Shown here: in pieces, positions 6,213 to 60,021 of the stretch | Numbering within the stretch: the stretch's first letter is position 1 | Layout of the letters: every line of letters starts with the position of its first letter | From: Arenimonas daejeonensis | GTDB taxonomy: Bacteria; Pseudomonadota; Gammaproteobacteria; Xanthomonadales; Xanthomonadaceae | DNA length: 64,000 nt | Assembly: GCF_007993735.1 (NCBI RefSeq) | Contig: NZ_CP042453.1 | Span: forward strand, 2,170,001-2,234,000 | Direction of reading: 5' to 3' | Notes under the pieces: model-generated | Told to the model about the DNA's origin: nothing | Databases searched by the model: none | The model's input: the letters and a program-made list of their open reading frames with translations, nothing else | Made by a program: the position numbers and the translations under genes

Positions 6213-8084
6213 AACACAAACCCGGCGCGTCGTTGGTGCTGCCGCGCCTGCTGATTGTTCTGCACGACCTTGTGATGATCGCCTTCATCTGGGTCGGCCT
6301 GCGCTGGCTGGCCAGCGTGGCGGGTGCGCCGGCCGCGCCATCGCTGGGCTACGAACTGCTGATCGTCCTGGTCACGCAGGGTGTGGTGCTGCGCATGGTG
6401 GGCCTGTACCAGGGGGCTGTGGCGCTTCGCCAGCCTGCCCGATCTCGCCAACCTGGTGCGCGCGGCGCTGCTGGGCGTACTGCTGATCGTCGCCACCCTG
6501 TTCCTGCTCGGCATGATCGACCAGGTGCCACGGCGCGTGCTGTTCCCGTACCCGGTGGCCCTCGTGGTGGCGCTGGGCACTCCCAGGCTGTTGTACCGGC
6601 TGTGGAAGGACTACCGGCAGTCGGAACATCCCGCCAATGCGGTGCGTGTCCTGGTGCTGGGCGCCGGCCGCACCGCCGAGACCCTGCTGCGCGACCTGCG
6701 CAGCGATGGCCGCTACCAGCCGGTCGGACTGCTGGACGACCAGCCGGCGCTGAAGGGCGCGAAAGTGCAGGGCGTACCCGTGCTCGGCACGCTCGACGAA
6801 CTGCCGTACATCGCCCAGGAAACCGCGCCCAAGTTGCTGGTGATCGCCATGCCCTCGGCCAATGCCGCCGAAATGCAGCGGGTGGTGTCCCTTTGCGACG
6901 AGACCGGCGTGCCCTTCCGCACCGTGCCGCGGTTGTCGGACATGTTGTCCGGCAAGCCGCAGCGCCTGCAGTTGAGCGAGGTCAGGATCGAGGATCTGTT
7001 GGGGCGCAAGCCGGTCGAATTCGACGAGGCCTGGAGTTCGGTGGCTGGCAAGCGCGTGATGGTGACCGGCGCAGGCGGTTCGATCGGTTCCGAGCTGGCG
7101 CGACAATGCGCGGCCGCAGGTGCCCAGTCCGTGCTCCTGCTCGAACGCGCGGAACTGCCCCTGGACGACATCTGCTGCGAACTGATGCGCGACTATCCCG
7201 GCGTCAGCGTGCAGCCCATGCTCGCCGACTGCGGCGACGCCACAGCCTGCCGCATCGCTCTGGCCCAGGGCATGGATTACGTATTCCATGCCGCTGCCTG
7301 CAAGCAGGTGCCCATGCTGGAGGGGCAGGTGCGCGAAGCCCTGCGCAACAACGTACTGGCCACCGCGACCGTGGCCCGCGCCTGCCTCGAGGCCAGGGTC
7401 GGTAATTTCGTGCTGATCTCGACCGACAAGGCGATCTGCCCGGTCAACGTGCTCGGCGCCAGCAAACGATTCGCCGAGCTTGCCTGCCAAGTCGTATTCG
7501 CGGGCGGACCCGTGCAGTTGTCGATCGTGCGTTTCGGCAACGTGCTCGACTCGGCCGGCAGCGTGGTGCCGTTGTTCCGGAAGCAGATCGCGGAGGGCGG
7601 GCCGGTGACCGTGACCCACCCCGAAGTCACGCGTTACTTCATGACCATCCCCGAAGCCTGCCAGCTGATCCTGCATTCGGTGAGCCTGGGCAGCGAATCC
7701 TGCGCGGTGTATGCGCTGGACATGGGGCGCCCGGTGGCGATCCGGGAGCTGGCCGAGCAGATGATCAGGCTGAGCGGCAAACGTCCGGGCATCGACGTCG
7801 AGGTGAGCTACATCGGCCTGCGCCCAGGCGAGAAGCTGCACGAGATCCTGTTCCATCCGCAGGAACGCTACCAGCGCACACGCCACCCGCGCATTCTCCA
7901 GGCCGAACCCCGCGTCGTGCGGGCCGACGCGTTGCGGCCGTTGCTGGCCGAAATGGAATCGCTGCTGCAGCAGTCAGACGCCGAACTGGCGATGTTCGCG
8001 CTGCTGCGTCGGGCCGTGCCCGAGTACAATCCGGAGTCCGCCCCGATGTTGTCGCCTGCGACGCATCGGGATCCTACGCACTGA
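6209..8084 (+). CDS. CapD/FlaA1/WbpM-type nucleotide-sugar dehydratase (one frameshift)
   Basis: These membrane-anchored SDR enzymes act as UDP-N-acetylhexosamine 4,6-dehydratases/epimerases for O-antigen or capsule sugars. The N-terminus has several membrane helices. The middle has a Rossmann-like region (LVLGAGRTAETLLRDL), and the catalytic SDR domain starts at VTGAGGSIGSELAR. STDKA is conserved, but the usual Met in NVMGATK is Leu here (NVLGASK). Length of about 625 residues is normal. An extra G in CCAGGGGG near 6411-6416 shifts the frame. The start overlaps the preceding stop (ATGA), and galU follows after 15 bases. Confidence 0.87.
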
Positions 8085-8099
8085 CCGGACGGGAGAGAC

Positions 8100-8977
8100 A
8101 TGTCATTCCAGATCCGCAAGGCCGTATTCCCCGTTGCCGGCTTGGGCACCCGCTTCCTGCCGGCCACCAAGACCGTGCCCAAGGAAATGCTTCCGGTGGT
8201 GGACAAGCCACTGATCCAGTACGCCGTGGACGAAGCGATCGAGGCGGGCTGCGATACGCTGGTCTTCGTCACCAACCGCTACAAACATTCGGTGGCCGAT
8301 TATTTCGACAAGGCCTACGAGCTCGAACAGAAGCTTGAAAAGGCCGGGAAGTCCGAACTTCTGGCGATGATCCGCGATGTGCTGCCGCGGCACGTGCGGG
8401 CCGTTTTGTCACCCAGGCCGAAGCCCTGGGCCTGGGACACGCGGTGCTGTGCGCGCGTCCGGTGATCGGCGACGAACCCTTCGCGGTGCTGCTGCCCGAC
8501 GACCTGATCTGGAACAAGGGGCCCGGCGCACTCAAGCAGATGGCCCAGCTGGCCGCGCAGGAATCCGCCAGCGTCATCGCCGTCCAGGACGTGCCGCCGG
8601 AACAGACCGGAAGTTATGGCATCGTCGCCACCCGTGATTTTTCCGGTCGCCATGGCGACATCACGGCCATCGTCGAAAAACCGCGGCCCGAGGTCGCACC
8701 GAGCACGCTCGCCGTGGTTGGCCGTTATGTGCTCAGCGGGCGCATCTTCGACCACCTTGCCCGCACGAAGCCAGGTGCTGGCGGCGAGATCCAGCTCACC
8801 GACGGCATCGCTTCGCTGATGACCGAGGAACGGGTGCTGGCCTACCGGTTCCAGGGCCGCCGTTTCGACTGCGGCAGCCGCATCGGGCTGGTGGAGGCGA
8901 CCATCGAGTTCGCCCTGGACCACGAAGATCTCGCGGAGCCCGCGCGGGCCTACATGCGCGCCGCCCTGGAGCGCTGA
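8100..8977 (+). CDS. galU: UTP-glucose-1-phosphate uridylyltransferase (one frameshift)
   Basis: GalU makes UDP-glucose from UTP and glucose-1-phosphate for LPS, exopolysaccharide and trehalose pathways. The N-terminal nucleotide-binding motif [19 protein letters not shown] is intact, followed by [12 protein letters not shown]; the second half shows [18 protein letters not shown] and [10 protein letters not shown]. One T seems missing near 8403-8407 (GTTTTG for GTTTTTG), which breaks the frame after LPRHVRAV. Corrected length is about 293 residues, as expected. The stop abuts a convergent minus-strand gene with no gap. Confidence 0.93.
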
Positions 8978-9400
8978 TCAGGCCAGCCAGCGCCAGGCGA
9001 CGGCCAGGACCACGGCCAGCGCGACCGCAAGGCTGATCAGGCCCGCCGCCTGCAGGCGCCGGGCGATGCGCAGGGCGTCGCTGCCATGGCGCAGTGGTGC
9101 GTTCTGGAAGTTCCAGCCCGGCCGGCGGCCATTGGTTCTGCCGGCGCGTCTGGCTGGCCCAGTCCAACAGGAATCGCCCGAGCAGGACGGCGCAGGCTGC
9201 CGTGGCGAGCTGGAGCAGGAGGACACCGCCCCGACGGCCTGGACTGCAGAGTCCGGGTCGTGCTCCGCCTGCGCCTGAGTCCGGCGCAGCCAGAACTCGA
9301 AAGCCAGCAACAGTACGAGACCGAGTGCGGCGGCCACACCCAGCGCCCGACCCAGCTTGCGCCGTTGTGCGAGGTTCTTTCGTTCCTGCCGCGAGTCCAT
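8978..9400 (-). CDS. Hypothetical small membrane protein (two compensating frameshifts)
   Basis: I do not recognise a family. Read with one missing G near 9228 and one extra base near 9120, the 140-residue product is coherent. It has a basic N-terminus (MDSRQERKNLAQRRKLGR), a hydrophobic helix (VAAALGLVLLLAFEF), a second helix (VLLLQLATAACAVLLG) and a C-terminal helix (AAGLISLAVALAVVLAV). The raw frame replaces the second helix with a Ser/Arg-rich stretch, which is why I infer errors. It sits convergently against galU and divergently from the oxidoreductase at 9460. Confidence 0.55.
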   Translation of the reverse strand: MDSRQERKNLAQRRKLGRALGVAAALGLVLLLAFEFWLRRTQAQAEHDPDSAVQAVGAVSSCSSSPRQPAPSCSGDSCWTGPARRAGRTNGRRPGWNFQNAPLRHGSDALRIARRLQAAGLISLAVALAVVLAVAWRWLA

Positions 9401-9459
9401 GCTTTCCAGCCGTCGGGGTGAGCTGACATCCTAGACGCTGATCGCTTCCGGTACCGGCC

Positions 9460-10740
9460 ATGGATGCTTCCAGTTACTACCGCGCGTCGGCGCGCCCGCA
9501 GGCGGGGTTCGCGCCGCTGGACGGCCGCCGCGACGCTTCGGTGTGCGTGGTCGGCGCGGGGTTTGCCGGGCTCAACACCGCCCTGGGGCTGGCCGAGCGG
9601 GGCCAGCGCGACGTGGTGCTGCTGGATGCCGACACGGTCGGACATGGCGCGTCCGGGCGCAATGGCGGCTTTGTGTTCGGCGGGTTTTCGCGGGGCGAGG
9701 AAGCCTTGCTGGCCGAGCTCGGGCCGGTGCGTGCGCGTGCGCTCTACCAGGGCACGCAGGACGCGGTGCAGTTGATCCGTACCCGGATCGCACGCCACGG
9801 CATCGACTGCCAGGCCACCGACGCCGGCGTGCTGTGGGCCAACTGGTTCCGGGATCCGGCGCCGCTGCGCGCCCGCCAGCGCCTGCTGGCCGAATATTTC
9901 GGCGTGCAGTGGGACTGGGTGCCCGCCGCCGAACTGGCGGAGCAGGTGCGTACCCGCCGTTACGGCGATGGCCTGTACGAACGCAACGCGCTGCATTTCA
10001 ACCCGCTCGATTACGCACGTGGCCTGGCCACGCTGGCCCATGGCCACGGTGTTGGCATCCACGAACATTCGCCGGCGATCGCACTGCAGCGCGACGGCCA
10101 TGGCTGGCGCGTGCGCACGCCCGGCGGCGATGTCGCCGCCCGGCAGGTGGTGCTGGCCTGTGGCGGCTACCTGGCCGGCCTGCGCCGCGAAGTGGATGCG
10201 GGCGTGCTGCCGATCGCGACCTACGTGATGGTCACCGAACCGCTCGGCGCTCGGCTGGACGAAGCCATCCGGACCCGGGCCGCCATCTACGACAGCCGGT
10301 TCGCCTTCGACTATTACCGGCCGCTGCCGGATACGCGCATCCTCTGGGGCGGGCGCATTTCCGTGCTCGACCGCTCGCCCGAGGCCGTGAAGCGGCTGCT
10401 GTACCGCGACCTGCTGAAGGTTTTCCCGCAGTTGGAGGGGGTGCGGGTCGACTACGCCTGGTCCGGCCTGATGAGCTACGCCCGCCACCAGATGCCGCAG
10501 ATCGGCCGTGTGGACGAGGGGTTGTGGCTGGCCCAGGCCTTCGGCGGCCACGGCGTGGCGCCGACCACGATGGCCGGCGAAGTGCTGGCGGCGGCGATCG
10601 CCGAAGACGACCCGCGCTGGCGCGAGTTCGCCGACTACGGGCTGGTATCGGCCATGAAGCCGGCCGGCTACCTTGGCGCGCAGCTGAGCTACTGGTGGTA
10701 CCAGGCGAGGGACGCCTGGAAGGACTGGCGCGGGCGCTGA
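9460..10740 (+). CDS. FAD-dependent oxidoreductase, DAO family
   Basis: D-amino-acid-oxidase-fold flavoenzymes oxidise amines or amino acids; this one resembles the PuuB-like subgroup (gamma-glutamylputrescine or sarcosine-type oxidases). The dinucleotide-binding motif VVGAGFAGLNTALGLAERG lies at residues 29-47, followed by GASGRNGGFVFGG, typical of the DAO family. The C-terminal FAD-contacting QAFGGHGVAPTTMAGEVLA is also present. The frame is intact over 426 residues. It stands alone between a divergent membrane-protein gene and a palindromic terminator. Substrate cannot be told from sequence; no polyamine genes are near. Confidence 0.8.
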   Translation: MDASSYYRASARPQAGFAPLDGRRDASVCVVGAGFAGLNTALGLAERGQRDVVLLDADTVGHGASGRNGGFVFGGFSRGEEALLAELGPVRARALYQGTQDAVQLIRTRIARHGIDCQATDAGVLWANWFRDPAPLRARQRLLAEYFGVQWDWVPAAELAEQVRTRRYGDGLYERNALHFNPLDYARGLATLAHGHGVGIHEHSPAIALQRDGHGWRVRTPGGDVAARQVVLACGGYLAGLRREVDAGVLPIATYVMVTEPLGARLDEAIRTRAAIYDSRFAFDYYRPLPDTRILWGGRISVLDRSPEAVKRLLYRDLLKVFPQLEGVRVDYAWSGLMSYARHQMPQIGRVDEGLWLAQAFGGHGVAPTTMAGEVLAAAIAEDDPRWREFADYGLVSAMKPAGYLGAQLSYWWYQARDAWKDWRGR

Positions 10741-20637: not shown

Positions 20638-22034
20638 GTGTTGCCATTGGTCGCTCTGGTCGGCCGGCCGAATGTCGGCAAGTCCACGATCTTCAACGCG
20701 CTGACGCGCAGCCGCGACGCCCTCGTGCACGACGAGCCCGGCGTGACGCGCGATCGCCACTACGGTTTCTGCCGCCTGGTGGAAGAACGGCCGTTCGGCC
20801 TGTGCGACACCGGTGGCCTTTCCGGTGAGGAAGAGGGCCTGGCCGGCGCCACCGCGCGCCAGGCACGCGCCGCCGTCGAAGAGGCCGACCTGGTGCTGTT
20901 CGTCGTGGACGGCCGCGAGGGGCCGTCCGGCCTGGACCAGAACATCCTGTCTTTCCTGCGCAAATCCGGCACGCGCTTCTTCCTGGTCGTGAACAAGACC
21001 GACGGCATCGACGTACAGGCCGCCGTGGCCGAGTTCGCGCGCTTCGGTGTCGAGCGTGTCATCCCGGTCGCCGCCGCGCACCAGCGCGGCATCCCGGAGC
21101 TGCTCGAGGAAATCATTCCCGAGCTGCCGGAAGACGGCGACGCCGACGTGCTGGCCGACGACCCGGATCGCATCCGCATCGCCTTCATCGGCCGCCCCAA
21201 CGTCGGCAAGTCCACCTGGTGAACCGCCTGCTGGGCGAGGAGCGCATGATCGCCTCCGACGTGCCCGGCACCACCCGCGATTCGATCGCGGTGGACCTGA
21301 CCCGCGACGGCCGCGACTACCGCCTGATCGACACTGCCGGCCTGCGCCGGCGCGCGAAGGTCGAGGAAGCGGTGGAGAAGTTCAGCGCCTTCAAGACCCT
21401 GCAGGCGATCGAAACCTGCCAGGTGGCCGTGGTGATGCTGGACGCGGGCGAGGGCGTTACCGAACAGGACGCCACCGTTCTGGGCCTGGTGCTCAACGCC
21501 GGCCGCGCCCTGGTGGTCGCCGTGAACAAGTGGGACGGCCAGGACAAGTACACGCGCGACCAGGCGATGTCGATGCTCGAGCGCAAGCTCTCGTTCTGCG
21601 AGTGGGCCGAACGCATCACCATCTCGGCCAAACACGGCACCGGCATGCGCGAGCTGTTCAAGGCCATCCATCGCGCCCACGCCTCGGCCACGCACCAGTT
21701 CAGCACCGCCGAGACGACCAAGGCGCTGTCGATCGCCATAGAGAGTTTCCCGCCGCCGGTCGTGCGCGGGCACGCGGCCAAGATGAAGTTCGCGCACCCG
21801 GGCGGCGCCAACCCGCCGACCTTCATCGTGCACGGCAACCGACTGAAGTCGCTGAGCGAGAGTTACCGTCGTTACCTCGAGAACTTCTTCCGCAAGCGCT
21901 TCAAGCTGGTCGGTACGCCGATCAAGTTCGTGTTCAAGGAAGGCGAGAACCCCTACGAGGGGAAGAAGAACGTGCTCACCGAGCGCCAGGTCAAGGCCAA
22001 GCGCCGGTTGATGAAACACGTCAAGGGCAAGTGA
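20638..22034 (+). CDS. der: Ribosome biogenesis GTPase Der (one frameshift)
   Basis: Der (EngA) is an essential tandem-GTPase needed for 50S assembly. Two G domains are seen: GRPNVGKST at the N-terminus with [11 protein letters not shown] and NKTDG, and a second GRPNVGKST at about 21190-21216 followed by [10 protein letters not shown] and NKWDGQDK. The C-terminal KH-like domain ends in NPYEGKKN. The frame breaks exactly in the second P-loop, at CCTGG 21215-21219, where one more C restores [13 protein letters not shown] 20638 is chosen because GGGAGAG precedes it. Corrected length is about 466 residues. Confidence 0.95.
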
Positions 22035-23839: not shown

Positions 23840-24973
23840 ATGGAAATGATCGCGGAAATCACCCCGGCACAGGCGCGCGAGCGCCAGGCCGGCGGCTGCG
23901 TGCTGGTGGACGTGCGCGAGCCCGGCGAACACGCGCTGGGCCTGCCCGAAGGCGCAATTGCGGTGGCGCGCGCGGCGCTGGAAGCCGAGCCACGGCGCTG
24001 GTTGCCCGATCCCGATGCCGAGGTGCTGCTGATCTGCGGCAGCGGCCGCCGTTCGCTGCTGGCCGCCGATGCGTTGGCCGCGGCCGGGTATTCGCGCCTG
24101 CGATCCGTGACTGGCGGTTTCGAGCGCTGGCGCGCCGAGGGCTTGCCGGAAACCGCCGGCGCGCCAGAGGACGCCGATTTCCTGGAACGTTATTCCCGCC
24201 ACCTGCGCCTGCCGCAGGTCGGCATCGAAGGCCAGCGCAAACTGGCGCAGGCGAGGGTGCTGCTGGTCGGCGCCGGTGGCCTGGGATCGCCGGCGGCGTA
24301 TTACCTGGCCGCCGCGGGCGTCGGCACCCTGGTGCTGGCCGACGACGACGTGGTGGACCGCAGCAACCTGCAGCGGCAGATCCTGCACACCGAGGCGCGC
24401 ATCGGCGTGGCCAAGGTCGAATCGGCGCGCATCGCGTTGTCGGCGCTCAATCCGCGGCTGCAGATCGAAACCGAACGTGTTCGGGTCAATGTCGACAATG
24501 TCGAGGCGCTGGTGTCCGGCGTGGACGTGGTCGTGGATGGCGCTGACAACTTCCCGGTGCGCTACCTGCTGTCGGACGCCTGCGTGCAGTTGGGCAAACC
24601 GCTGGTCTACGGAGCGGTGCACCGGTTCGAGGGCCAGGTGAGCCTGTTCGATGCCGGCCGCCGTCGTGGCCAGGCGCCGTGTTACCGCTGCCTGTTTCCG
24701 GAACCGCCCGCGCCCGAGGACGCGCCCAACTGTGCCGAAGCCGGCGTGCTGGGCGTGCTGCCGGGCGTCATCGGCCTGCTGCAGGCGACCGAGGTGTTGA
24801 AGCTGATCCTCGGCTTGGGCGACTCACTGGCAGGTCGCCTGCTGCATTTTGATGCACTGGCGATGCGTTTCCGTGAGACGCGGTTGGCTGCCGATCCAGA
24901 CTGCCCAGTCTGTGTGCCGGGCCGGCATTTCCCTGGCTACCAGGCCTTGCAGGAACTTTGCCGGGCAGGCTGA
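23840..24973 (+). CDS. Rhodanese - MoeB/ThiF fusion, molybdopterin-synthase adenylyltransferase
   Basis: This protein probably adenylates the C-terminus of MoaD (or a ThiS-like carrier) and hands on sulfur. Residues about 8-110 form a rhodanese domain with the active-site loop LICGSGRRS. Residues about 120-377 are an E1-like ThiF/MoeB domain with the nucleotide motif VLLVGAGGLGSPAAYYL, DRSNLQRQ, and paired zinc cysteines (CYRC and CPVC). The rhodanese domain is N-terminal, whereas in eukaryotic MOCS3/Uba4 it is C-terminal. It follows mobA and moeA, which supports a molybdenum cofactor role. The frame is intact. Confidence 0.88.
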   Translation: MEMIAEITPAQARERQAGGCVLVDVREPGEHALGLPEGAIAVARAALEAEPRRWLPDPDAEVLLICGSGRRSLLAADALAAAGYSRLRSVTGGFERWRAEGLPETAGAPEDADFLERYSRHLRLPQVGIEGQRKLAQARVLLVGAGGLGSPAAYYLAAAGVGTLVLADDDVVDRSNLQRQILHTEARIGVAKVESARIALSALNPRLQIETERVRVNVDNVEALVSGVDVVVDGADNFPVRYLLSDACVQLGKPLVYGAVHRFEGQVSLFDAGRRRGQAPCYRCLFPEPPAPEDAPNCAEAGVLGVLPGVIGLLQATEVLKLILGLGDSLAGRLLHFDALAMRFRETRLAADPDCPVCVPGRHFPGYQALQELCRAG

Positions 24974-25069: not shown

Positions 25070-25097
25070 ACTTCGCATAATGTATATTATGTCAATT
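25070..25097 (+). other. dif: dif site (XerC/XerD chromosome dimer resolution site)
   Basis: The 28 bp consist of a left arm ACTTCGCATAA (25070-25080), a central TGTATA (25081-25086) and a right arm TTATGTCAATT (25087-25097). From memory, E. coli dif has arms GGTGCGCATAA and TTATGTTAAAT with the same TGTATA centre; the inner parts of both arms and the centre are identical here. It lies in the only sizeable AT-richer intergenic gap nearby (24974-25264), where I see no gene. Transcription direction switches on either side. In xanthomonads filamentous phages integrate at dif; no phage genes are visible here. Confidence 0.9.
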
Positions 25098-25206: not shown

Positions 25207-25239
25207 CGAAGGCCCGCGGCATTCCGCCACGGGCCTTCG
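25207..25239 (-). terminator. Terminator after the DUF4136 lipoprotein gene
   Basis: Arms CGAAGGCCCG (25207-25216) and CGGGCCTTCG (25230-25239) pair perfectly around a 13-base loop. On the minus strand the hairpin is followed by ATTTTC. It begins 26 bases after the stop of the lipoprotein gene. Confidence 0.7.
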
Positions 25240-25264: not shown

Positions 25265-25854
25265 TTACTTCGCTGGCGGCGTGCCCGCATCGGCGGCCGG
25301 CGGGAAATAACGGAACATGTTCTCGATGCCGATCTGGACGGCTTCACTGTTCTTCTGCGGCGAGTCGCTGACGGTCTTCTCGGCGGTACCGCGCCAGATC
25401 GCCTGCTTGGTCGAGGTCTGGAACATGTCGACAATCAAGGTGCCGACATCGTAGGTGCGCACCGTGGTGGTGGCGCTGCCCATGCCGCCGTAGGCATACG
25501 GACGCATGTACGGGCCGCCCCAGCCGTAGCCGGCGTACATCGGTGCGTTGTAGTAGGTGTTCACCGACTGCTGCTGGTGCACGGAGACGCCGACGCCCAC
25601 CACCACCTGGCCGGTCTGGCCTTGCGGAACCCTGGTCCAGCCCTTGGACTGGAGCTGGGCGTCCACGGCGCCGATGATGCGGGACACCATAAGGGCGAGA
25701 CGCCCTGCCCGGCCAGGTCGTGGTCCAGCCAGCTGTAGGTCCTGAGCTGGGCGAAATCCACCGCCGGGTCGTAGTCGATGCTGGTGCGCGGCGCGGTGGT
25801 GGCGCAGGCAGAAAGCAGCAGGACCAGGGACAACAGCACAAGCTTCTTCATCAT
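25265..25854 (-). CDS. DUF4136-type lipoprotein (one frameshift)
   Basis: The product starts MMKKLVLLSLVLLLSACATT, a lipoprotein signal with Cys 17, so it should be anchored to a membrane facing the periplasm. The mature part contains YDPAVDFAQLRTYSWLD, characteristic of DUF4136, then a Gly/Tyr-rich middle and the C-terminal DMFQTSTKQAIWRGTAEKTV. Function is unknown. One C seems missing near 25690 (CGCCCTTATGG), which splits the gene. Corrected length is about 197 residues. A GAGGAG ribosome-binding site is upstream. It is the first gene on the right of dif. Confidence 0.78.
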
Positions 25855-26410: not shown

Positions 26411-28030
26411 ATGACCCTGTTTCCCCGCCGCGACCTGCTGGCGCTGGCCCTGCTCGCGGCCCTCGCCGGCTGCGCCACCACTTCGCCGCGCCCCGGCGAT
26501 GCCGATATCGATGAATTGCTGACCGCCCGCGGCGGTCCGCCTGCCGTATCGGATCAAACACCCGAATCCGTGCGGGCCTGGTTGTCCGAACCCATGACCG
26601 CCGAGCGCGCCGTGCGCATGGCGATGCTGCGCAGCCCGCGCCTGCAGGAGGAATACGCGCGCCTGGGACTGGCGCATGCCGAAGTGCTGGAGGCGGTGCA
26701 GGTCGAAAACCCCCGGCTGTCGCTGTCCTGGCTCGCGCTTGATCCCGGCTCGGGCGAGGACCACACGGTCGGACTCAGCCTGCCGTTGGCGGACCTGCTG
26801 GTGCTGCCGATGCGCGCACGCCTGGCCGATGCGGAATTCGAACGCGCCCGGTTGGAAATCGCCGCTGCCGTGCTGGGCGTCGCCAGTGAAGTCGAAGCGG
26901 CCTGGTACGCCGCCATCGGCGCGCAGCAGGTGGCGCAGATGCGCGCCGCGGTCGCCGAAGGCGCCGCCACCAGCGCCGAGCTGGCGCAACGTTTTTACGA
27001 CGCCGGCAACATCAGCGAACTGCAACTGCGGCAGGAACAGGCCATGGCCAGCAGCGCGCGGATCGACTCGCTGCGTGCGTCCTCCGAGGCGGCGCGGGCC
27101 CGGCTGGAACTCACCCGCGCAATCGGCCTGAGCGGCAAGGACGCCGACTGGGCACCGGCCGATCGCCTGCCGATGCCCGTGGCCGAAGAGGATCCGGCGG
27201 AAACGCTGGTGACGCTGGCACGCGAGGGCAACCTCGAACTGCTCGCCGCGCGCCAGGAGGTCGAGGTGCTGGCCGATGCCCTCGGCATCACCCGCCGGCT
27301 GCGCTGGATTGGCGGCAGCGAGATCGGCTACGAGCAGGAAGACGATGCCGATGGCCAGCGCCTGCGCGGCCCGACACTGGAACTGGAACTGCCGATCTTC
27401 AACCAGGGCCAGGCGAAGCTGGCACGGGCCGAGGCCTTGCTGGCCGGCGCTCTGGCGCGTGTCGCCCAGGCCGAGCTGGCCGTCGAACAGGGCGTGCGCC
27501 TGAATGCGCACACGGTGGCCACCCTGCGCGACGTGATCGTCGCGCACCAGCAGGCGCTGATCCCGCAGCGCGAAGCCGTGGTCGCACGTCGCCAGGAGCA
27601 GCAGAACTACATGCTGATCGGCGTGTTCGAGCTGATCCGCGCCAAGGTCGACGAATATGACGCCTACCAGTCCTACCTGGAAGCCGTGCGCGACTACTGG
27701 CTGGCGCGGGTGGAACTGGCGCGCATCGTCGGTCAGCGCCTGCCCAGCGACGCGGCCATCGGCGAACGCACGCCGAGCGTGCAGGAGATCCTGTCGCCGG
27801 GTGAGGCGGGCATGGACCACTCCGGCCACGGCGGCATGGATCACGCGGCGCCCGAGACGGTTGATCACTCCAAGCACGGCGGCAGCGCGCCGGCCGAACC
27901 GGAAGCGATGGATCACTCCGGCCACGAAGGCATGGACCACGGCGAACCGGCCCCTGAATCCGAACCGGAACCGGAAAATGACGCCGAGGAAGAAGACGAA
28001 CACGCCCACCACCACGGAGCCACGCCATGA
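26411..28030 (+). CDS. TolC-family outer membrane protein with His/Met-rich C-terminal tail
   Basis: The 539-residue lipoprotein (lipobox LAALAGC, Cys 21) has the coiled-coil outer-membrane-efflux domain repeated twice. Helical stretches include EVEAAWYAAIGAQQVAQMRA and ARVAQAELAVEQG. The C-terminal tail from about residue 468 is unusual, with repeated MDHSGH / VDHSKH / MDHSGHEGMDHG units, a Glu-rich stretch and HAHHHG. Such runs suggest copper or silver binding in the periplasm. No RND pump or membrane-fusion gene is next to it. The stop overlaps the multicopper oxidase start (ATGA). The frame is intact. Confidence 0.85.
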   Translation: MTLFPRRDLLALALLAALAGCATTSPRPGDADIDELLTARGGPPAVSDQTPESVRAWLSEPMTAERAVRMAMLRSPRLQEEYARLGLAHAEVLEAVQVENPRLSLSWLALDPGSGEDHTVGLSLPLADLLVLPMRARLADAEFERARLEIAAAVLGVASEVEAAWYAAIGAQQVAQMRAAVAEGAATSAELAQRFYDAGNISELQLRQEQAMASSARIDSLRASSEAARARLELTRAIGLSGKDADWAPADRLPMPVAEEDPAETLVTLAREGNLELLAARQEVEVLADALGITRRLRWIGGSEIGYEQEDDADGQRLRGPTLELELPIFNQGQAKLARAEALLAGALARVAQAELAVEQGVRLNAHTVATLRDVIVAHQQALIPQREAVVARRQEQQNYMLIGVFELIRAKVDEYDAYQSYLEAVRDYWLARVELARIVGQRLPSDAAIGERTPSVQEILSPGEAGMDHSGHGGMDHAAPETVDHSKHGGSAPAEPEAMDHSGHEGMDHGEPAPESEPEPENDAEEEDEHAHHHGATP

Positions 28031-29349
28031 AACTGACCCGACGCAATCTGCTGATCGGCGCCGGCGCCGGCCTGGTCACCACCACGGCGGTGCAGGCGGG
28101 CGCGCAGTCCGGCGGCCATGAAGGCCATGTGCCGTCACAAACGCCAGAAGGCGTGCCCTCCCCCGCCGTGCATCGGGCCGGCAAAGTGCGCACGCTCAAC
28201 GGCTGGTCCCTTCCCCACCGCATGAACAGTGGCGTCAAGGAATTCCACCTCGTCGCCGAAGAATTCGAACACGAGTTCGCGCCCGGCTCGAAGGCGATCT
28301 GCTGGGGCTACAACGGCGGCACGCCGGGTCCGACCATCGAGGCAGTGGAAGGCGACCGCGTGCGCATCCATGTCACCAACCGCCTGAAGGAAGCCACCAC
28401 CATCCACTGGCACGGCCTGATCCTGCCCAGTGGCATGGACGGCGTCGGCGGACTGAGCCAGCCGAAGATCCAGCCGGGCGAAACCTACGCCTACGAGTTC
28501 GAGCTCAAGCAGCACGGCACCCACATGTACCACCCGCATGCCGACGAGATGGTGCAGATGGCGATGGGCATGATGGGCCTGTTCATCATCCACCCGCGCG
28601 AAGGCGACACGGTGGACCGCGACTACGCGCTGCTGCTGCACAACTTCGCCCTGCATCCGGGCACGCGCCGGCCGGACCCGGCGGTGATGCAGGAATTCGA
28701 CCTGTGGACCTTCAACTCCAAGGTCTTCCCGGCGATCGAGCCGATGGTCGCGCGCACCGGCGAACGCGTGCGCATCCGGGTCGGCAACCTCAGCATGTGG
28801 AACCATCCGATCCACCTGCACGGGGTGCAGTTCGAGGTCACCGGTTCCGACGGCGGCCGCTGGCCGGAGTCGCGCTGGCGCAAGGAGGTCACCGAGATCG
28901 TCGGCGTCGGCCAGATGCGCGACATCGAGTTCGACGCCATCGCCGGCGACTGGGCCTTCCACTGCCACATGTCGCACCACACGATGGGGCCCATGGGCCA
29001 CGAGATCCCGAACACCCTGGGCGTGGACCAGTCCGGTGTCGAGGAGAAGATCCGGAAGATGCTCCCGGGTTACATGGCCATGGGCCAGCACGGCATGTCC
29101 GAACACCAGGACCACACCGACAGCGGCCACATGAAGGGCCCGGAGAACACGCTGGCGATGATGGCCGGCAAGGGCCCGTTCGGGAACATCGAGATGGGCG
29201 GCATGTTCACCGTGGTGAAGGTGCGCGACGACCAGGCGCCGGACGATTTCAGCGACCCGGGCTGGTATCGCAATCCGGCCGGCACGGTGGCGCGGCGGGT
29301 CAGCGCCGACCCGGGTTTCGGCGACCCGGTGCGGCGCAAGCCGGCCTGA
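28027..29349 (+). CDS. Tat-exported multicopper oxidase, two cupredoxin domains
   Basis: Likely oxidises Cu(I) to the less toxic Cu(II) in the periplasm. The N-terminus TRRNLLIGAGAGL is a twin-arginine signal. Copper ligands are visible in order: TTIHWHG, HGTHMYHPHAD, NHPIHLHG and HCHMSHHTMGPM, the last matching the type-1/type-3 pattern HCHxxxHxxxxM. At 440 residues it is shorter than three-domain CopA/CueO, and only two cupredoxin domains are seen. A Met/His-rich insert (MAMGQHGMSEHQDHT) follows. It lies between the TolC-like gene and the MerR regulator. Confidence 0.9.
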   Translation: MKLTRRNLLIGAGAGLVTTTAVQAGAQSGGHEGHVPSQTPEGVPSPAVHRAGKVRTLNGWSLPHRMNSGVKEFHLVAEEFEHEFAPGSKAICWGYNGGTPGPTIEAVEGDRVRIHVTNRLKEATTIHWHGLILPSGMDGVGGLSQPKIQPGETYAYEFELKQHGTHMYHPHADEMVQMAMGMMGLFIIHPREGDTVDRDYALLLHNFALHPGTRRPDPAVMQEFDLWTFNSKVFPAIEPMVARTGERVRIRVGNLSMWNHPIHLHGVQFEVTGSDGGRWPESRWRKEVTEIVGVGQMRDIEFDAIAGDWAFHCHMSHHTMGPMGHEIPNTLGVDQSGVEEKIRKMLPGYMAMGQHGMSEHQDHTDSGHMKGPENTLAMMAGKGPFGNIEMGGMFTVVKVRDDQAPDDFSDPGWYRNPAGTVARRVSADPGFGDPVRRKPA

Positions 29350-29357
29350 TTCCGGGC

Positions 29358-29390
29358 TTGACTCTGGACCAGGGTCCAGGCTCGACACTG
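29358..29390 (+). promoter_or_regulatory. MerR-type promoter/operator
   Basis: A perfect dyad CTGGACC-AG-GGTCCAG (29364-29379) follows directly on a TTGACT -35 box (29358-29363). It ends before CTCGACACT, a weak -10. A dyad inside a stretched spacer is the hallmark of MerR-family metal-responsive promoters. It lies 26-50 bases upstream of the MerR gene, between the oxidase and the regulator. Confidence 0.7.
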
Positions 29391-29415
29391 CCAGCCTCAG
29401 TCGAGGATCACGACC

Positions 29416-29812
29416 ATGAAGATTGGCGAGTTGATGAAGCGCACCGGTGTCCCGATCGACACCATCCGCTATTACGAAAACCACGGCATCCTGCCCCCGG
29501 CCCAGCGCCGGGAGTCCGGCTACCGTGATTACGATGAACAGGACGTGGCGCGCATCCGCTTCGTGCGGCGCGCCAAGCACCTGGGTTTCACCCTTCGCGA
29601 GATCCGCGACTTGCTGGCGCTGTCACGGCGCCCCGACGAGGACATGGCCGCCGTGCGCGAGGCGGCCACGGTGAAACTGGCCGATATCGAGCAGCGTATC
29701 GGGGAACTGCAGCGTATCCGCGACGGCCTGCGTCATCTGGTGGACGCCTGTCCCGGTCACGGCGACCGGGGTCGATGCCCGATCCTTGCCGCCCTGTCGA
29801 CGGAGACGACCC

Positions 29813-29826
<14 letters not shown>
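29416..29826 (+). CDS. MerR-family copper/heavy-metal regulator (CueR-like)
   Basis: The 136-residue protein begins [20 protein letters not shown], the MerR helix-turn-helix, followed by a dimerisation coiled coil. The C-terminal metal loop reads [14 protein letters not shown]. CueR has CPG-x5-C at this place; here the two cysteines are one residue further apart. Control of the following P-type ATPase and of its own promoter through the dyad at 29364 is inferred. Its end overlaps the ATPase start by 14 bases. Copper is the most likely signal from context, but zinc, lead or silver cannot be excluded. Confidence 0.85.
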
Positions 29827-32176
<2,350 letters not shown>

Positions 32177-36935: not shown

Positions 36936-37477
36936 GGCGCCACCGGTACGGAATGGATGTCGAGCACATAACCCTGGCGCCGCTGGCGGAGCCGGACATG
37001 AGTCGCGGAAACGTAGACCACGGTGGCGACGATCTCGCCGTCCTGCAGCAGCCGGCGGTTGCTGCTGGCCTCGGCCAGGTGCCATCCGGCGGGCAGGCGC
37101 GCATTGATCGCCGCCACCGGCCAGTACACCAGCTGCAGGTCGTCGAGCACGCGTTCGCCCGACAGCACCGGCGGCAGCCATTCAGCGCGAGTCTGGTCCA
37201 GGGTCGTCCCGTTCCAGTCCACGCGCAGCGCGACCTGGCCCTGCGCGTGCATGACCAGGCGCACCGACGCGGCATCCACTTCCACCAGCGCTTCGATGCT
37301 TTCGCGTCGCTCGCCGTGGTGGAAATCGAGCCGCTGCCGCAGCACCAGCTCGCGACCGAGCTCCGCCGGTGCCAGCCGCAGCGGTGGCATGGCGCCCGGC
37401 GCAGGCGCGCGCGTCGGTGCGCTGGCGCAGGCGGCCAGCAGTGTCGTGGACAGCACCAGGCTCAGGAAACGGAACAC
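36932..37477 (-). CDS. DUF3261 lipoprotein of aryl-polyene cluster
   Basis: The 181-residue protein starts at GTG 37477 with a lipobox (TTLLAAC, Cys 17) and a mature part containing RLDFHHGERRESIEALVEVD and DDLQLVYWPVAAINARLP, the pattern of the DUF3261 proteins regularly encoded in aryl-polyene clusters. It is thought to be outer-membrane or periplasm located and to help pigment transport; the exact role is unknown. It overlaps the halogenase-like gene by 16 bases and the ketosynthase by 4. Confidence 0.8.
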   Translation of the reverse strand: MFRFLSLVLSTTLLAACASAPTRAPAPGAMPPLRLAPAELGRELVLRQRLDFHHGERRESIEALVEVDAASVRLVMHAQGQVALRVDWNGTTLDQTRAEWLPPVLSGERVLDDLQLVYWPVAAINARLPAGWHLAEASSNRRLLQDGEIVATVVYVSATHVRLRQRRQGYVLDIHSVPVAP

Positions 37478-38706
37478 AGTTGCTCCAGTACGGCGAGGCG
37501 CCGCTTGTTTTCGGCAACGTAGGGATTGCGCGTGTCCCAGGCGTACCCGGCCAGGATCGCGCAGATCATGCGGCGGATGTCCGGGGTCGGGTTGGGATGG
37601 AAGATGATTTTCTGGAAGCCGCCGGCGTACCAGGCATCGACGAAGCAGCGGAAGGTGTCCACGCCCGCGCGCAGCGGCCTGCCGTAGTCCGCTTCCCAGT
37701 CCACCGGCTCCCCGGCGAACACACGCTGCAGGCAGGCGCTGGCCAGGCTGGCGGACTTGAACGCTATGGTGACCCCGGATGAGAACACCGGGTCCAGGAA
37801 TTCGCCGGCATTGCCCAGCAGCGCGTAATTCTTGCCCCAGAGCGACTTCACGTTGGCCGAATAGCCGACGATCTGTCGCGCCGGCGTGTCCCATCCGGCC
37901 CCGGCGAGCAACTGCGACAGCCCCGGGTCTTCACCGACGATGGCACGCAGGCGCTCGGTCTCGCTGCCGGTGTATTGGTCGAGGAAGGCCGTCTCCGCGA
38001 CCACGCCCAGCGAACAGCGGCCATTGGAGAACGGGATGGTCCAGTACCAGACATGGTCGTGCCTGGGATGCACGGTGATCAGGATCTTGTTGCGGTCGAA
38101 AGCCGCCGAGCCCGGCGCGATGTTGTCGCGCACGTGGGTGAAGATGGCGCCGCGCACTGGGAAACCCGAGGGGCTTTCCAGCTTGAGCATCCGCGGCAGG
38201 ATGCGCGCGAAGCCGCTGGCGTCCAGCAGGAAACGCGCCTGCACCGCATAGGTTTCGCCATCGGGCGAACGCACCGTCACGCGCGGCCGGTCGCCTTCGA
38301 CGTCCACCGACAGCACTTCGTGCCGGTAACGCACCGTGGCGCCCAGACGCTCGGCCTCGTCGGCCAGCACCTTGTCGAAGTCGGCGCGCTGCACCTGGTA
38401 GGTGGTGCCCCAGCCTTCGGAAAACTTGTCGCGGAAATCGAACTGCGTGTGCCGGCCGTCGCGCGCGAAGGCGGCGCCGTTCTTGTACTGGAAGCCGGCC
38501 TCGATCACGGCCTTGAGCATGCCCGCCTGTTCGATGAACTGCATGCTCTGCGGCAGCAGGCTTTCGCCGATGGAAAACCGCGGGAACTGTTCCTTCTCCA
38601 GCATCAGTACTTCCCTGCCCTGCTGGCGCAGCAGGCCGGCGGCCACGGCTCCGGCCGGGCCGGCGCCGATGATCAGGATCTCGACTTGTTCGGTGCGCAG
38701 GTCCAT
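37462..38706 (-). CDS. FAD-dependent halogenase-like oxidoreductase
   Basis: The 414-residue flavoprotein carries GAGPAGAVAAGLL (FAD motif, residues 14-26). It also has GFQYKNGAAF with Lys 75 at the place of the catalytic lysine of phenolic flavin-dependent halogenases, and WYWTIP (residues 220-225), which fits the WxWxIP signature of that family. FLDPVFSSGV is also typical. Xanthomonadins are brominated aryl polyenes, so halogenation of the pigment aryl head is a sensible role. A non-halogenating oxidoreductase of the same fold remains possible. The frame is intact; it sits 14 bases after the MMPL gene. Confidence 0.82.
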   Translation of the reverse strand: MDLRTEQVEILIIGAGPAGAVAAGLLRQQGREVLMLEKEQFPRFSIGESLLPQSMQFIEQAGMLKAVIEAGFQYKNGAAFARDGRHTQFDFRDKFSEGWGTTYQVQRADFDKVLADEAERLGATVRYRHEVLSVDVEGDRPRVTVRSPDGETYAVQARFLLDASGFARILPRMLKLESPSGFPVRGAIFTHVRDNIAPGSAAFDRNKILITVHPRHDHVWYWTIPFSNGRCSLGVVAETAFLDQYTGSETERLRAIVGEDPGLSQLLAGAGWDTPARQIVGYSANVKSLWGKNYALLGNAGEFLDPVFSSGVTIAFKSASLASACLQRVFAGEPVDWEADYGRPLRAGVDTFRCFVDAWYAGGFQKIIFHPNPTPDIRRMICAILAGYAWDTRNPYVAENKRRLAVLEQLCSVS

Positions 38707-38720
38707 GGGGGCTTGGGTGC

Positions 38721-41038
38721 TCAATGGGGTGAGGGTTCGGGACGGAAACAGGGCGACAGCACCCAGACCAGGCCGATGCCCAGCAGCAGGCTCAGGCCGA
38801 AGCTGTGCAGGGCCGGGGTGGCCGACAGCGCCAGCAGGCCGAAGGCCAGCAGGGTGCTGGCGGCACCAAGGAGACGGCCAGCCAACTGGCCGGGTCGTCG
38901 CGATGTTCAAGCAGGAAGATGCCGTAGTCCACCCCCATGCCCAGCAGCAGCAGCTGCGCCAGCACGCCGAACAGCTGCAGTGGTACGCCCAGCCAGCCCA
39001 GGGTCGCCAGGCTCAGCGCGGCGGCCAGCGCCGTCGGCAGCAGCGCACGCCAGGCGTGGCCGCGGAAACGCAGGAACAGGGCCAGGGCCACGGCCGCATA
39101 ACCGGCCAGCAGCAACCCGCCCATCTTCTGCCGGTACTCGCCGAGCAGGCGTGAATAGGTGGCGGTGCGGTCCACCCAGCGCACGCCCGGCAACTGTTCG
39201 CCCAGCGTCGCCAGTGCAGGCAGGGCGGCGCGGTCCGGGCCTTCCAGCAGGACCACACTGCCCCACTGCCCGTCCACTTCACCCAGCCACAGCGGGCGCA
39301 GCGGTGCGGACACCGGGTGCACCAGCCAGTCGTCCGGTGTCAGCGGCGGGTGCGTGCTGTCGGCCGGCGGGACGGGTTCGTCCAGTGCAGCCGCGGCGCG
39401 CGACCGTGCCGCGTGTTCCGCGGTCGCGACCAGGCGGGCATCGGCCTGCTGCCGAGCCGTCGAGGGCAGCCAGTCGCTGACGGCACGCCAGCCGCCCAGC
39501 TCGCCGGCCTGCACCAGCGGGGCGAGTCGATCCGTCAGCGCCTCTTCGGCCTGCCGCAGCGTTTCCGGGTCGTCGCCACTGACCAGGAAGTACTGCGCCG
39601 GACTCGGCAAACCCAGCTTCCGGCCCAGCGCCTGGTCCTGTGCCAGCAGGGCCGGCGGCGAACTCTGCAGGCTGCGCAGGTCGTCATCTACCCGCAGCTG
39701 CGACAGGCCGCCGGCGATGAAGGCCAGCACGACCGCAGCCATCACGTAGCCGCCCGCCCCGGGACGCCAGCGCGGCCAGATGGCCAGGCTGCCGGCGACA
39801 GCGTGCGCGAAGCGGCTGGTACGCGGTGTGCCTCGATCGAGCCACGGGAACCACAGCACCACCGTGAGGAAGGCCGCGACCAGGCCGGTGGCCGAAAACA
39901 ACGCCATCTGCCGCAGCCCCGGGAACGGCGCCAGGCCCAGGGCGAGATAGGCCAGCGCGCTGGTGACCAGGGCCAGTGCGAGTCCCGGCAACAACGCACG
40001 CAGCAGGGATCGCGGCGCCTGCCCGGGCGTGGCCTGGCGGCTGGCGAAATAGTGGATGCCGTAGTCCTCGGCCACGCCGACCAGGCTGGCGCCGAACAAA
40101 GGGGTCAGCAGGTGCACCTGCCCGAACACCAGCGCGGTCGCCGCCACGCCGGCCGCGACACCGACCAGCAGCGACAGCGCCACCAGCAGGATCGGCCGCA
40201 GGCTGCGGAACGACAGCCACACCAGCAACACCACGGCGGCCAGCGATCCCAGGCCGATGGTATTGACCTCTCGGCTGGCCTGGGCCGCGGCGGCTTCTGC
40301 ATGCAGGGGAACACCGCTGCGCAAGACTTCGAGTGGCGTGCCGGCCGCGTCACGCGCGGCGGTTTCAGCCGTTTCCAGCGCGTGCTGCAGGCGTCGTTCG
40401 CCGTCGAGCGCGAAGGCCGAGGTGCGGCTTTCAAGACGCAGCACCGCCCAGCGGGCCTCGCCCTCCTGCAAGGTCAGCAGGCCATCTAGCGGCTGCACCC
40501 GCCCTGCCCTCGCCTGCCACCAGTCCGGCCACAGTCCCAGCGGGTCATCCTGCCAGCGCATCAGGCCGCTGCCGGGGCCGAAACCGTAGAGCGCGGCGAG
40601 TGCGGATTCCGCGAGTGCCGCGGCGTCCGTTGTTTCCAGCCGTTTGCGCTGTGCCGGAGTCAGCAGGCCGCGGCGGTGAGGGGCATACAGGGCCAGCGCC
40701 TGCGCCAGCGTGTCCCCGTCGTCGTGCACGGCGGCCAAGGGTTGCGGCGGTTGATCCAGAGCGGCGAGGAATGCGGCCGAGGCGCGGCGCGTGCCGGCCC
40801 AGTCCCCGGCCTTGAGCAGCACGACGACCTGGCGCGTGGCGGCTTCACCGATGCGGGCGTTGGCCGCGCGCTGCAACGCGTCCTCGCCTTCGCCCGGCAG
40901 CAGGGCCATGACGTCGCTGTCCAGCCGGGCGTCGCGCCAGAAGCCGGTCTGCTGCGCGCCGATCGCGACCACCACGGCCAGCCACAGCCAGGCCAGCAGC
41001 GGCCACAGGCGTGCGCGGGCTTGCGTGGGCTCAGTCAA
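38721..41038 (-). CDS. MMPL-family exporter (one frameshift)
   Basis: Large inner-membrane transporter of the RND/MMPL superfamily, thought to extract the finished polyene from the inner membrane. Two sets of membrane helices flank two periplasmic domains: residues about 250-400 (SLAAVVLLVWLSFRSLRPIL, GVAEDYGIHYF, ALALVTSALAYLALGLAPF) and the C-terminal set (LLLLGMGVDYGIFLLEH). One C is missing near 38875, after which the second frame supplies STLLAFGLLALSATPALHS and the true stop at 38721. Corrected length is about 772 residues. It is neighboured by a LolA-like gene. Confidence 0.88.
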
Positions 41039-41672
41039 ACCGCGCCGCCTCGGCCGGGCTGGCGGTGGCCGGTTCGTCGCTCAGTTCGAGGAACCGGAGC
41101 GTGGTGTGGTCGCCGCCGGTTTCCTCCAGCGCCACCTCGTCCACATGTTCGTCGCCGCGCAGTTCGATGACGCGGAAAACCCGCTGCAGTCCGGCATCGC
41201 GTGGATGCAGCCGCAGTTGCCAGCGGCCATCGGGCAGGCGGTCTTCGTTGATCTCGAACTGCGGCGCCAGCGCGTCCAGGTCTCCGGCGACCAGGGCCAG
41301 CAGCAGCGAATTCACCGACGCCATGGCAGGCGAAACGGCGGCATCCAGCACTACCCGGGTGCTGCCGTCGGGTTGCCGGGTGAGCAGGCGGTCGCGTGTC
41401 AGCACCGTGCTGGAGGCGAAAGGCTCGGTGGTGTCCCAGATCACGCCGCGGTCGCGCAGCAACAGGAAACGACCGCGCGAAAGCAAAGGGTTCTTGAAGC
41501 CCTGCAACTGCTTGCGCTGCTCGAAGCTTCCGCGCAGTACCGCCGGCCGGGCCAGTCGGCCGCGGGCATCGTCGCTGGCCGCCTGCGGCGTCATGTCTTC
41601 GTTGGCGCACGCCACGGGCGAAGCCGAGGCCAGCAGCGCGGCCAGGATTGCCGCGGCGAAGGCCCTGGTCAC
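41031..41672 (-). CDS. LolA-like outer membrane lipoprotein carrier
   Basis: The 213-residue protein starts at GTG 41672 with a cleavable signal (AFAAAILAALLASASPVACA) and has the LolA-type sequence LRGSFEQRKQLQGFKNPLLS followed by GRFLLLRDRGVIWDT. In aryl-polyene clusters such proteins probably shuttle the lipidated pigment across the periplasm, receiving it from the MMPL protein. It overlaps the MMPL start by 8 bases and the thioesterase stop by 4. Confidence 0.85.
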   Translation of the reverse strand: MTRAFAAAILAALLASASPVACANEDMTPQAASDDARGRLARPAVLRGSFEQRKQLQGFKNPLLSRGRFLLLRDRGVIWDTTEPFASSTVLTRDRLLTRQPDGSTRVVLDAAVSPAMASVNSLLLALVAGDLDALAPQFEINEDRLPDGRWQLRLHPRDAGLQRVFRVIELRGDEHVDEVALEETGGDHTTLRFLELSDEPATASPAEAARFD

Positions 41673-42085
41673 GGCGACAGGCCCAGCCGCTGCCGCAGCA
41701 CCGTCGGCGAGGCGTAACACATCTCGCCCGTCGCCATGTCCACCGCCACCTGGATGCTGTGTGCGCGCGTCAGGACTTCGCCGGTGGCGGCGTCGCTGAC
41801 CAGGTAGTCGATCTTCAGCCGGTTCTCCCACTCGACGATCTGTGCGCGCACCTTCAGGCGCTGGCCGAACCGCGCCGAACGCACGTACTTCACGCGCAGG
41901 TCAACGATCGGCCAGGCGTAGCCGGAGTCGCGCATCTGCGGGTAGTCGTAGTCGTAGCGCTGCAGCAATGCGCAGCGCGCCAGCTCCAGGTATTTCATGT
42001 AGTGCCCGTGCCAGACCACGTCCATCGGGTCCAGGTCGTGGAAGGCCGGCGTCAGCTCGATCTCGGCGGAAAGATCAGTCGGCAT
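41669..42085 (-). CDS. YbgC-like thioesterase (hotdog fold)
   Basis: The 138-residue protein contains DLDPMDVVWHGHYMKYLELAR, the 4-hydroxybenzoyl-CoA thioesterase/YbgC active-site region with the catalytic Asp. It may release stalled acyl chains from the carrier proteins or CoA. The start ATG 42085 is preferred because upstream in-frame sequence is the 3' part of the ammonia-lyase gene. It overlaps that gene by 11 bases. The frame is intact. Confidence 0.88.
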   Translation of the reverse strand: MPTDLSAEIELTPAFHDLDPMDVVWHGHYMKYLELARCALLQRYDYDYPQMRDSGYAWPIVDLRVKYVRSARFGQRLKVRAQIVEWENRLKIDYLVSDAATGEVLTRAHSIQVAVDMATGEMCYASPTVLRQRLGLSP

Positions 42086-43624
42086 ACAGGCTCCATGCCT
42101 CGGCGCGGATCGCCGCCAGCAGCTGGCGCAGCTCGACGTCCAGCGCCCGGTCCTCGACCACCAGCGGCAGGCGCGCCGCCAGGTCGGCGTACATCGCCTC
42201 GGGCGCTGTGGCCAGTTGCGCGCCGCCATCAAGCGCGCGACGCAGGGCGATGCCCTGGCGTGCGGTGACCAGCAGCGCGGCGGTCACCTGTTCGGTCAGT
42301 TCGATCACCCGCAGCGCATCGCGCGCGGCGATCGTGCCCATGCTGACCTTGTCCTGATTGTGGCATTCGGTGGAACGCGAGAACACCGAAGCCGGCATGG
42401 TCAGCTTCAACGCCTCCGCCGTCCACGCCGAGACGCTGATCTGCAGCGCCTTCAGGCCGTGGTTGAGCGAAGCGCGGTCGCCGCTGGCGGCCGAAAGGTT
42501 GGCCGGCAGACCGTGGTTGTAGCGTGCGTCCACCAGCAGGGCCATCTGCCGGTCCAGCAGGTCGGCCAGGTTGGCGACCAGGTTCTTCAGCGAGTCCATC
42601 GCGAAGGCGATGTGGCCGCCGTAGAAATGGCCGCCGTGCAGCACCATCTCCTGCTCGGCATCGATGATGGGGTTGTCGTTGGCGCTGTTGAGCTCGTTCT
42701 CGAGGTTGGCGCGCAGCCACGGCAACGCGTCCTCCAGAACGCCGATCACGTGCGGTGCGCAGCGCAGCGAGTAGCGGTCCTGCAGGCGCTGTTCGTTGCG
42801 CGGCGGCCGGTCGGCGGCCAGGTCGGCGCGCAGACGCGCGGCCACGCGCTGCTGGCCCGGATGCGGTTTCACCGCGAACAGCGTCTGGTCGAAGTGGTGC
42901 GCGTTGCCGGCGCTGGCGACCACGTTGTAGGCGGTGATGCGCGTGGCCAGGCGCCCGAGGTGGTCGGCGCGGCCGAAGGCGAGGCAGGCCAGCGCGGTCA
43001 TCACCGCGGTGCCGTTCATGATCGCCAGGCCTTCCTTCGGGCGCAGGCGCAGCGGCGACAGGTCATGTGCGGCCAGTGCGTCCGCGGCCGGTTTCACCTG
43101 GCCCTGGTGCCAGACTTCGCGCTCGCCGCACAGGGCGGCGGCGACGTAGGACAGCGGCGTCAGGTCGCCGCTGGCGCCGACCGAGCCTTCGGCCGGGATC
43201 AGCGGCAGGATGTCGTGCGCCAGCAGCGCCTCGAGCTGCCGCAGCAGGCCCAGGCTGACGCCGGACACGCCCTGCGCCAGCGACTGCAGGCGCACCAGCA
43301 GCACCGCGCGGGTCTCCTCCGGATCAGGAACCGCCCCAGCCCGCAGCCGTGGTAGGCATAGAGGTGGTGCGGCAGTTCGTCCACCAGGGCCGGTGGAATG
43401 GCCACCGTGCAGGAGTCGCCGTAGCCGGTGCTGACGCCATAGACCACGCCGTCCTCGGCGATAAGGCGGTCCACGAATTCGGCGCCGCGGTTGATGCGCG
43501 CCTGGAACGACGGGTCCGCCGACAGCACCGGACGTGCCTGGCGGCGGGCGACCGCGAGCACGTCCTCGATCCGCAGCGGACGGCCGTCGATCAGGATCGG
43601 ACGTGGATCAGGAATCGCGGGCAT
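42075..43624 (-). CDS. HAL/TAL-type aromatic amino acid ammonia-lyase (one frameshift)
   Basis: MIO-dependent lyases remove ammonia from His, Phe or Tyr. The MIO tripeptide Ala-Ser-Gly is seen in GSVGASGDLTPLSY. YGVSTGYGDS and ENELNSANDNPI are further family motifs. Corrected length is about 516 residues. One G seems missing at 43324-43328 (CCTGATCC for CCTGGATCC), after which the frame continues EETRAVLLVRLQSLAQG. A tyrosine lyase would yield 4-coumarate, a possible aryl starter, as in flexirubin clusters. Substrate cannot be set from sequence alone. It overlaps the acyltransferase gene by 17 bases. Confidence 0.88.
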
Positions 43625-47769: not shown

Positions 47770-47803
47770 GGTCTTGCTCGTGCGGTGCGACGGCCGGGCG
47801 GCC

Positions 47804-60017: not shown

Positions 60018-60021
60018 CGGG

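Follow-up and report, generated by a model that had tools for sequence, protein, structure and literature searches.

The chromosomal dif site of Arenimonas daejeonensis, its position and its surroundings in related genomes

Proteobacterial dif sites have been described as 28 bp sequences with an 11-6-11 layout that are intergenic, low in GC, present in a single copy and located near the switch in GC skew (Carnoy and Roten 2009, PMC2731167). The motif GGGNAGGG is named KOPS in PMC6199493, and according to that account its polarity in Pseudomonas aeruginosa PAO1-UW is set by dif, which may differ from the point opposite oriC. For the filamentous phage XacF1, dif of Xanthomonas is reported to be the attB site (PMC5666396), and the Xer activation factor XafT is described as being encoded by an IMEX element of Vibrio cholerae (PMC9765430).

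We analysed a stretch of 64,000 nucleotides of the A. daejeonensis chromosome, referred to below as the window, and its surroundings in the 3,032,442 bp contig. From these data we conclude with great confidence that window positions 25070-25097 constitute the chromosomal dif site, as a preliminary description of this DNA had claimed: the site is present once, lies approximately opposite dnaA and is flanked by converging motifs, and the genome encodes XerC, XerD and an FtsK gamma domain. Sequence, copy number, position, motif polarity, gene content and conservation were each demonstrated for this dif. By analogy with the characterised E. coli system, XerCD would bind and cleave the site and resolve chromosome dimers in A. 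daejeonensis. Recombination between sister chromosomes would generate a dimer, and the septum-bound translocase FtsK would pump DNA along the GGGNAGGG polarity until two copies of dif meet. The FtsK gamma domain would then activate XerD, and strand exchange by XerC and XerD at the 6 bp centre would yield two monomers.

Sequence, setting and copy number of the site

The preliminary description had placed dif at 25070-25097, where the + strand reads ACTTCGCATAATGTATATTATGTCAATT from the XerC arm to the XerD arm. In the 11-6-11 layout defined in PMC2731167, the XerC-binding arm ACTTCGCATAA occupies 25070-25080, the central hexamer TGTATA 25081-25086 and the XerD-binding arm TTATGTCAATT 25087-25097, all on the + strand. 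The dif sites of Thiobacillus denitrificans and Methylobacillus flagellatus given in the same source each differ from it by 2 mismatches. The conserved inner arms and the 6 bp centre are present within the 28 bp, and the outer bases of the XerD arm differ between relatives. Against what we take to be the E. coli dif sequence there are 5 mismatches, and as all of them fall in the outer arms, bases 5-23 are identical; the claim that the inner arms and centre are the same as in E. coli thus stands.

The site is intergenic, in a gap of 291 bp that extends from the end of a moeB-type molybdopterin-synthase adenylyltransferase gene on the left (23840-24973, + strand; NF006444, 578.5 bits with a cut-off of 449) to the stop codon, at 25265, of a gene for a DUF4136 protein on the right (25265-25690, - strand; PF13590, 98.5 bits). 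GC content of this gap is 56.7% compared to 68.2% for the window, in agreement with the gene-free, AT-richer gap noted previously. The 28-mer itself is 25% GC, a value equalled or undercut by 40 of the 63,973 28-mers of the window. A hairpin at 25207-25239, between dif and the DUF4136 gene (fold z of -4.99 for the + strand, -2.36 for the - strand), is probably the terminator of that gene. Six of 10 window frames were without a match in NCBIfam; these were mostly mechanical frames and were dropped, and the DUF4136 frame then matched Pfam. Copper-resistance-like genes adjoin dif at 26411-32005 and encode a TolC-like protein, a multicopper oxidase and a heavy-metal P-type ATPase. Near dif, genes for a TolC-like protein and a multicopper oxidase recur in four of the 20 loci from relatives that we compared.

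A 26-base dif pattern allowing up to 3 mismatches matched once in the window, with 1 mismatch, and gave no match in 100 dinucleotide shuffles of the window. When a 21-base core was searched against the entire contig with up to 3 mismatches, the single match was exact and began at 2195072; the reversed control of this core had no match in the contig. The site is therefore present in one copy by this search, and the better second dif that would have spoken against the preliminary description was not found in the 3.03 Mb contig. We also built a weight matrix from 50 of 51 dif sites identified in our genome set (see below). As the A. daejeonensis site is among them, its own score of 54.2 bits is circular. 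The matrix recovered dif and its own reverse reading in the window and nothing else; the other-strand reading scored 17.6 bits, dif being partly palindromic. Further stretches of the same genome contained nothing above 2.4 bits. Repeats between 23500 and 27000 were imperfect similarities, and none covered the 28 bp among the matches listed (25 of 37 inverted pairs). An exact search with the 28-mer found no match in a genome-contig database from which records of this genome may be left out.

Motif polarity, Xer machinery and the position of the terminus

In 474.8 contiguous kb there are 168 copies of GGGNAGGG, with 69 on the + and 10 on the - strand to the left of dif and 17 and 72, respectively, to its right. 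The best single switch in polarity falls in the 1.9 kb between contig positions 2193766 and 2195703, which contain dif (2195070-2195097), and leaves 27 of the 168 motifs on the wrong side; placements of the switch with at most two more errors than the best one cover 2182302-2198208. From dif to 2266 kb, where the skew peak discussed below is approached, the counts are 1 and 22, indicating that the motifs track dif and not the skew peak. Four permuted motifs served as controls. GGGANGGG had no switch at dif (16/9 to the left, 20/18 to the right) and GGAGNGGG switched only on the right (13/14, 9/22), while GGNGAGGG (46/14, 20/40) and GAGGNGGG (13/3, 7/20) switched in the same sense as GGGNAGGG. 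As control motifs switch too, part of the GGGNAGGG signal reflects general G-richness of the leading strand. With this reservation, KOPS polarity converges on dif.

The recombinases that would act on the site are encoded by the same genome. XerC (399750-400601) scored 360.7 bits with TIGR02224 (cut-off 335.15) and XerD (117630-118493) scored 361.2 bits with TIGR02225 (cut-off 329.6), such that both genes sought on the basis of the preliminary description were recovered above the cut-off of their model. An FtsK gamma domain is encoded at 2122727-2122909 (PF09397, 97.7 bits). Four more tyrosine-recombinase matches, at 371.5, 1562.7, 1580.3 and 1589.9 kb, were below both Xer cut-offs or not in the match lists of those models. 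A literature search on the orientation of dif with KOPS and FtsK, in which most terms were required jointly, found nothing.

Pieces of dnaA were located at 730.6-731.9 kb, 1.464 Mb from dif at 2195.08 kb. If this one contig represents the complete closed chromosome, the distance from dnaA to dif amounts to 48.3% of the circle, which places dif roughly opposite the origin; the exact opposite point, at about 2247.5 kb, lies 52 kb past dif and outside the window. The dnaA matches are in several frames (G000:C1:730595-731897), and both guaA (window 59529-61031) and engA (window 21219-22034) look truncated. The split dnaA, the short guaA and engA, and a completeness of 86% in one contig suggest indel errors in the assembly.

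GC skew was sampled around the chromosome in 20 evenly spaced pieces of 20 kb. From dnaA to the window nine of 10 samples were positive (the weakest at +0.0002), the exception being that at 1516001 (-0.0047), and in the other half eight of 10 were negative, the exceptions being those at 1 (+0.0198) and 606401 (+0.0006). For the window as a whole the skew is +0.0149. Across the 474,800 contiguous bases from 1970801 to 2445600 the cumulative skew reached its maximum at about 2267.8 kb, 73 kb past dif and outside the window. A switch set at dif gains 12,826 as opposed to 29,590 at the best position; this is less than half and was counted against dif. In 2000 block bootstraps with the switch at dif, a fraction of 0.447 gave an offset at least as large as the 73 kb observed. 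The 95% spread of the change point was -215 to +236 kb with the switch simulated at dif, which is nearly the whole stretch, and -229 to +105 kb around the best point. The bootstrap fraction implies that skew neither locates nor moves the terminus at such resolution, and given the simulated spread we rejected the change point at 2267.8 kb as evidence against dif. The 73 kb offset of this noisy peak is within the 0.1-200 kb range reported in PMC2731167, although above its third quartile of 21 kb.

The earlier claim that the terminus lies inside the window is to be qualified. dif fixes the end of segregation, and this segregation terminus is in the window; the skew peak and the point opposite the origin are beyond it, with the skew too noisy to distinguish its peak from dif.

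Conservation of dif and insertions beside it in relatives

With up to 2 mismatches, dif was found in 51 of 120 genomes including that of A. daejeonensis, once in each. No match at this threshold was present in the other 69, whose dif is either more divergent or missing from the assemblies; this was counted against the identification. In 20 loci from relatives, 134 of 143 GGGNAGGG motifs were oriented to dif and the flanks outside the 28 bp were mostly different, those of G001 and G024 being alike. In 10 of the 16 same-genus loci compared, moeB and dif were separated by 73 bp to 3.3 kb; moeB was on the XerC side in nine of them and on the XerD side in the remaining locus. This exception is A. 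fontis (G012; locus L087, 9999-10026, and again L166), where dif is inverted between moeB and tolC/multicopper-oxidase neighbours of unchanged order. When we scanned 50 of 80 moeB loci, seven contained dif, five from named Arenimonas and two assigned to same-genus genomes, and 43 did not; the latter include the Arenimonas-named loci L115, L117, L118 and L127, within the moeB stretch examined. In this clade dif persists while its neighbourhood changes, and filamentous-phage genes and other inserts adjoin it in several relatives.

We searched for Zot (PF05707) in every one of the 34 genus and family genomes that have dif, out of the 51 dif-positive genomes overall. Five contained a match. In four of these (G021, G034, G042 and G063) Zot was 1.2-3.4 kb from dif; in the fifth (G005, 21.1 bits) the two were on different contigs. 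The A. daejeonensis genome had no Zot match, so that a filamentous phage was not detected at its own dif. The preliminary description had called dif an integration site of filamentous phages in xanthomonads, and this is borne out in relatives, where Zot is less than 4 kb from dif in four of the five genomes containing it. Genes of the suggested filamentous prophages were found beside dif of sister genomes and not beside that of A. daejeonensis. The hosts of XacF1 and A. daejeonensis presumably belong to one family.

In A. caeni (G021), genes that match Rep (PF02486, phrog_453), Zot, a PHROG labelled "minor head protein" and a protein binding single-strand DNA adjoin dif. At a distance of 5,967 bp the XerC arm and centre of the host site recur in the same orientation (L092, about 4030-10026), and a phage-sized insert is enclosed between this half-site and the intact dif. 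This genome also has an open reading frame with a weak VC1465-family match (21.0 bits) that terminates some 35 bp away from dif. A second half-site, which likewise repeats the XerC arm and centre, was found in G008 1,391 bp from dif (L086, 3413-4830; 5.3 bits in the weight-matrix scan) and bounds a 1.4 kb insert; the contamination estimate of this assembly is 9%. One gene in the insert exceeds the cut-off for the VC1465/XafT family, whose members are Xer activation factors; it scored 80.7 bits when taken as an open reading frame and 97.5 bits in six-frame translation. Two further short frames in the insert matched nothing in NCBIfam, PHROG or Pfam, and no replication or coat gene was seen. Half-sites were thus present in two of the 20 relatives' loci; the scan found none in the other 18 and none in the A. 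daejeonensis window, and hence no sign of an IMEX at its dif.

Searching the 34 genomes with the VC1465 family gave 19 matches in 14 genomes, above the cut-off only in G008. Six of these matches were within 140 bp of dif (G008, G012, G026, G034, G042 and G043), all on the XerC side and pointing away from dif; the one in G012 carries two internal stops. The other 13 are elsewhere, among them the weak match of A. daejeonensis at 281 kb. A tentative reading, which we consider doubtful, is that dif in this clade repeatedly serves as a docking point for very small elements with their own Xer activation factor, the G008 insert perhaps representing a minimal Xer-exploiting class and the A. daejeonensis site an empty instance. 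The small XafT-bearing insert of G008 would be the part of this work to pursue.

Other genes were also seen beside dif. In G022 (L093, 4514-9156) genes for a tyrosine integrase and a SIR2-like protein of 1284 aa (phrog_15208, 1457 bits) extend to within about 100 bp of dif, and this pair is perhaps a defence-carrying insertion. On the XerC side of dif in G015 (L089, 10212-15153) there are an integrase-like gene and one for a KfrA-type plasmid protein, a further candidate mobile insertion.

As integrated elements do adjoin dif in relatives, the A. daejeonensis site could in principle be a dif-like attachment site left by a phage or plasmid element and not the resolution site proper. This is highly improbable, since no second such site was found in the contig, the window holds no further half-site, Zot is lacking from the matches of this genome, its sole and weak Xer-activation-factor match is distant from dif, both genes flanking dif are ordinary and the FtsK motifs converge on it. 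An AT-rich palindrome arising by chance in an intergenic gap would account for the low GC and partial palindromy of the site. The shuffles and the reversed control, which gave zero matches, and the recurrence of dif, which 51 of the 120 genomes share and whose flanks mostly differ among the 20 loci compared, make such a coincidence extremely unlikely. The chromosomal dif site remains the reading that we adopt.

Terminus-proximal genes and comparison with known systems

dif provides a firm map point, and it places rpsA, guaB and the pigment-type and copper-resistance-like clusters of the window near the terminus. rpsA is at window 1561-3336 (S1 domains; TIGR00717, 693 bits). The preliminary description had likewise called rpsA, guaB and the pigment cluster terminus-proximal, and rpsA, guaB, part of guaA and a pigment-type cluster are indeed in the window. 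At 37462-49094 we observed halogenase-like, aromatic ammonia-lyase, acyltransferase and AMP-binding/ApeI-type genes, which we take to be a xanthomonadin-type aryl polyene cluster.

The distance between rpsA and dif was compared in a subset of 30 from the 34 genus and family genomes with dif, A. daejeonensis included. The two were on one contig in 18, a condition that biases the distances short in draft genomes. Among these, the distance was 22-88 kb in nine genus members (22 kb in A. daejeonensis) and 42-357 kb in nine genomes beyond the genus; it was 118 kb (G039) and 42 kb (G063) in the two one-contig genomes other than that of A. daejeonensis. Transcription of rpsA was toward dif in all 18, and the gene lay on the XerC side in 12 of them and on the XerD side in six. 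Given these distances and the uniform orientation, a terminus-side, co-oriented rpsA is usual here, and its position near the terminus is a clade trait. The suggestion that such a position is unusual was therefore not upheld.

The A. daejeonensis site resembles the proteobacterial dif/XerCD systems of PMC2731167 in its 28 bp, its 11-6-11 layout, its intergenic location, its low GC, its single copy and possibly its vicinity to the skew switch. The outer XerD arm reads CAATT as opposed to TAAAT and AAAAT in two sites quoted there, which is no difference of weight. As in P. aeruginosa PAO1-UW, KOPS polarity goes with dif, which may lie apart from the point opposite oriC; unlike PAO1-UW, the A. 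daejeonensis dif is 1.7% of the chromosome from that point and falls in the symmetric class (<5%) of PMC6199493. The skew switch of PAO1-UW is at most 15 kb from dif in that account, whereas the noisy peak found here is 73 kb away. The likeness to XacF1 (PMC5666396) lies in the Zot-bearing genes that adjoin dif in relatives, and the difference in that A. daejeonensis itself has no Zot match. Similarly, dif-integrated inserts with VC1465-family genes in relatives recall the IMEX with its Xer activation factor (PMC9765430), although none is beside dif in A. daejeonensis. The site is a textbook, ordinary example of dif, and the known picture of dif and Xer is unchanged by it.
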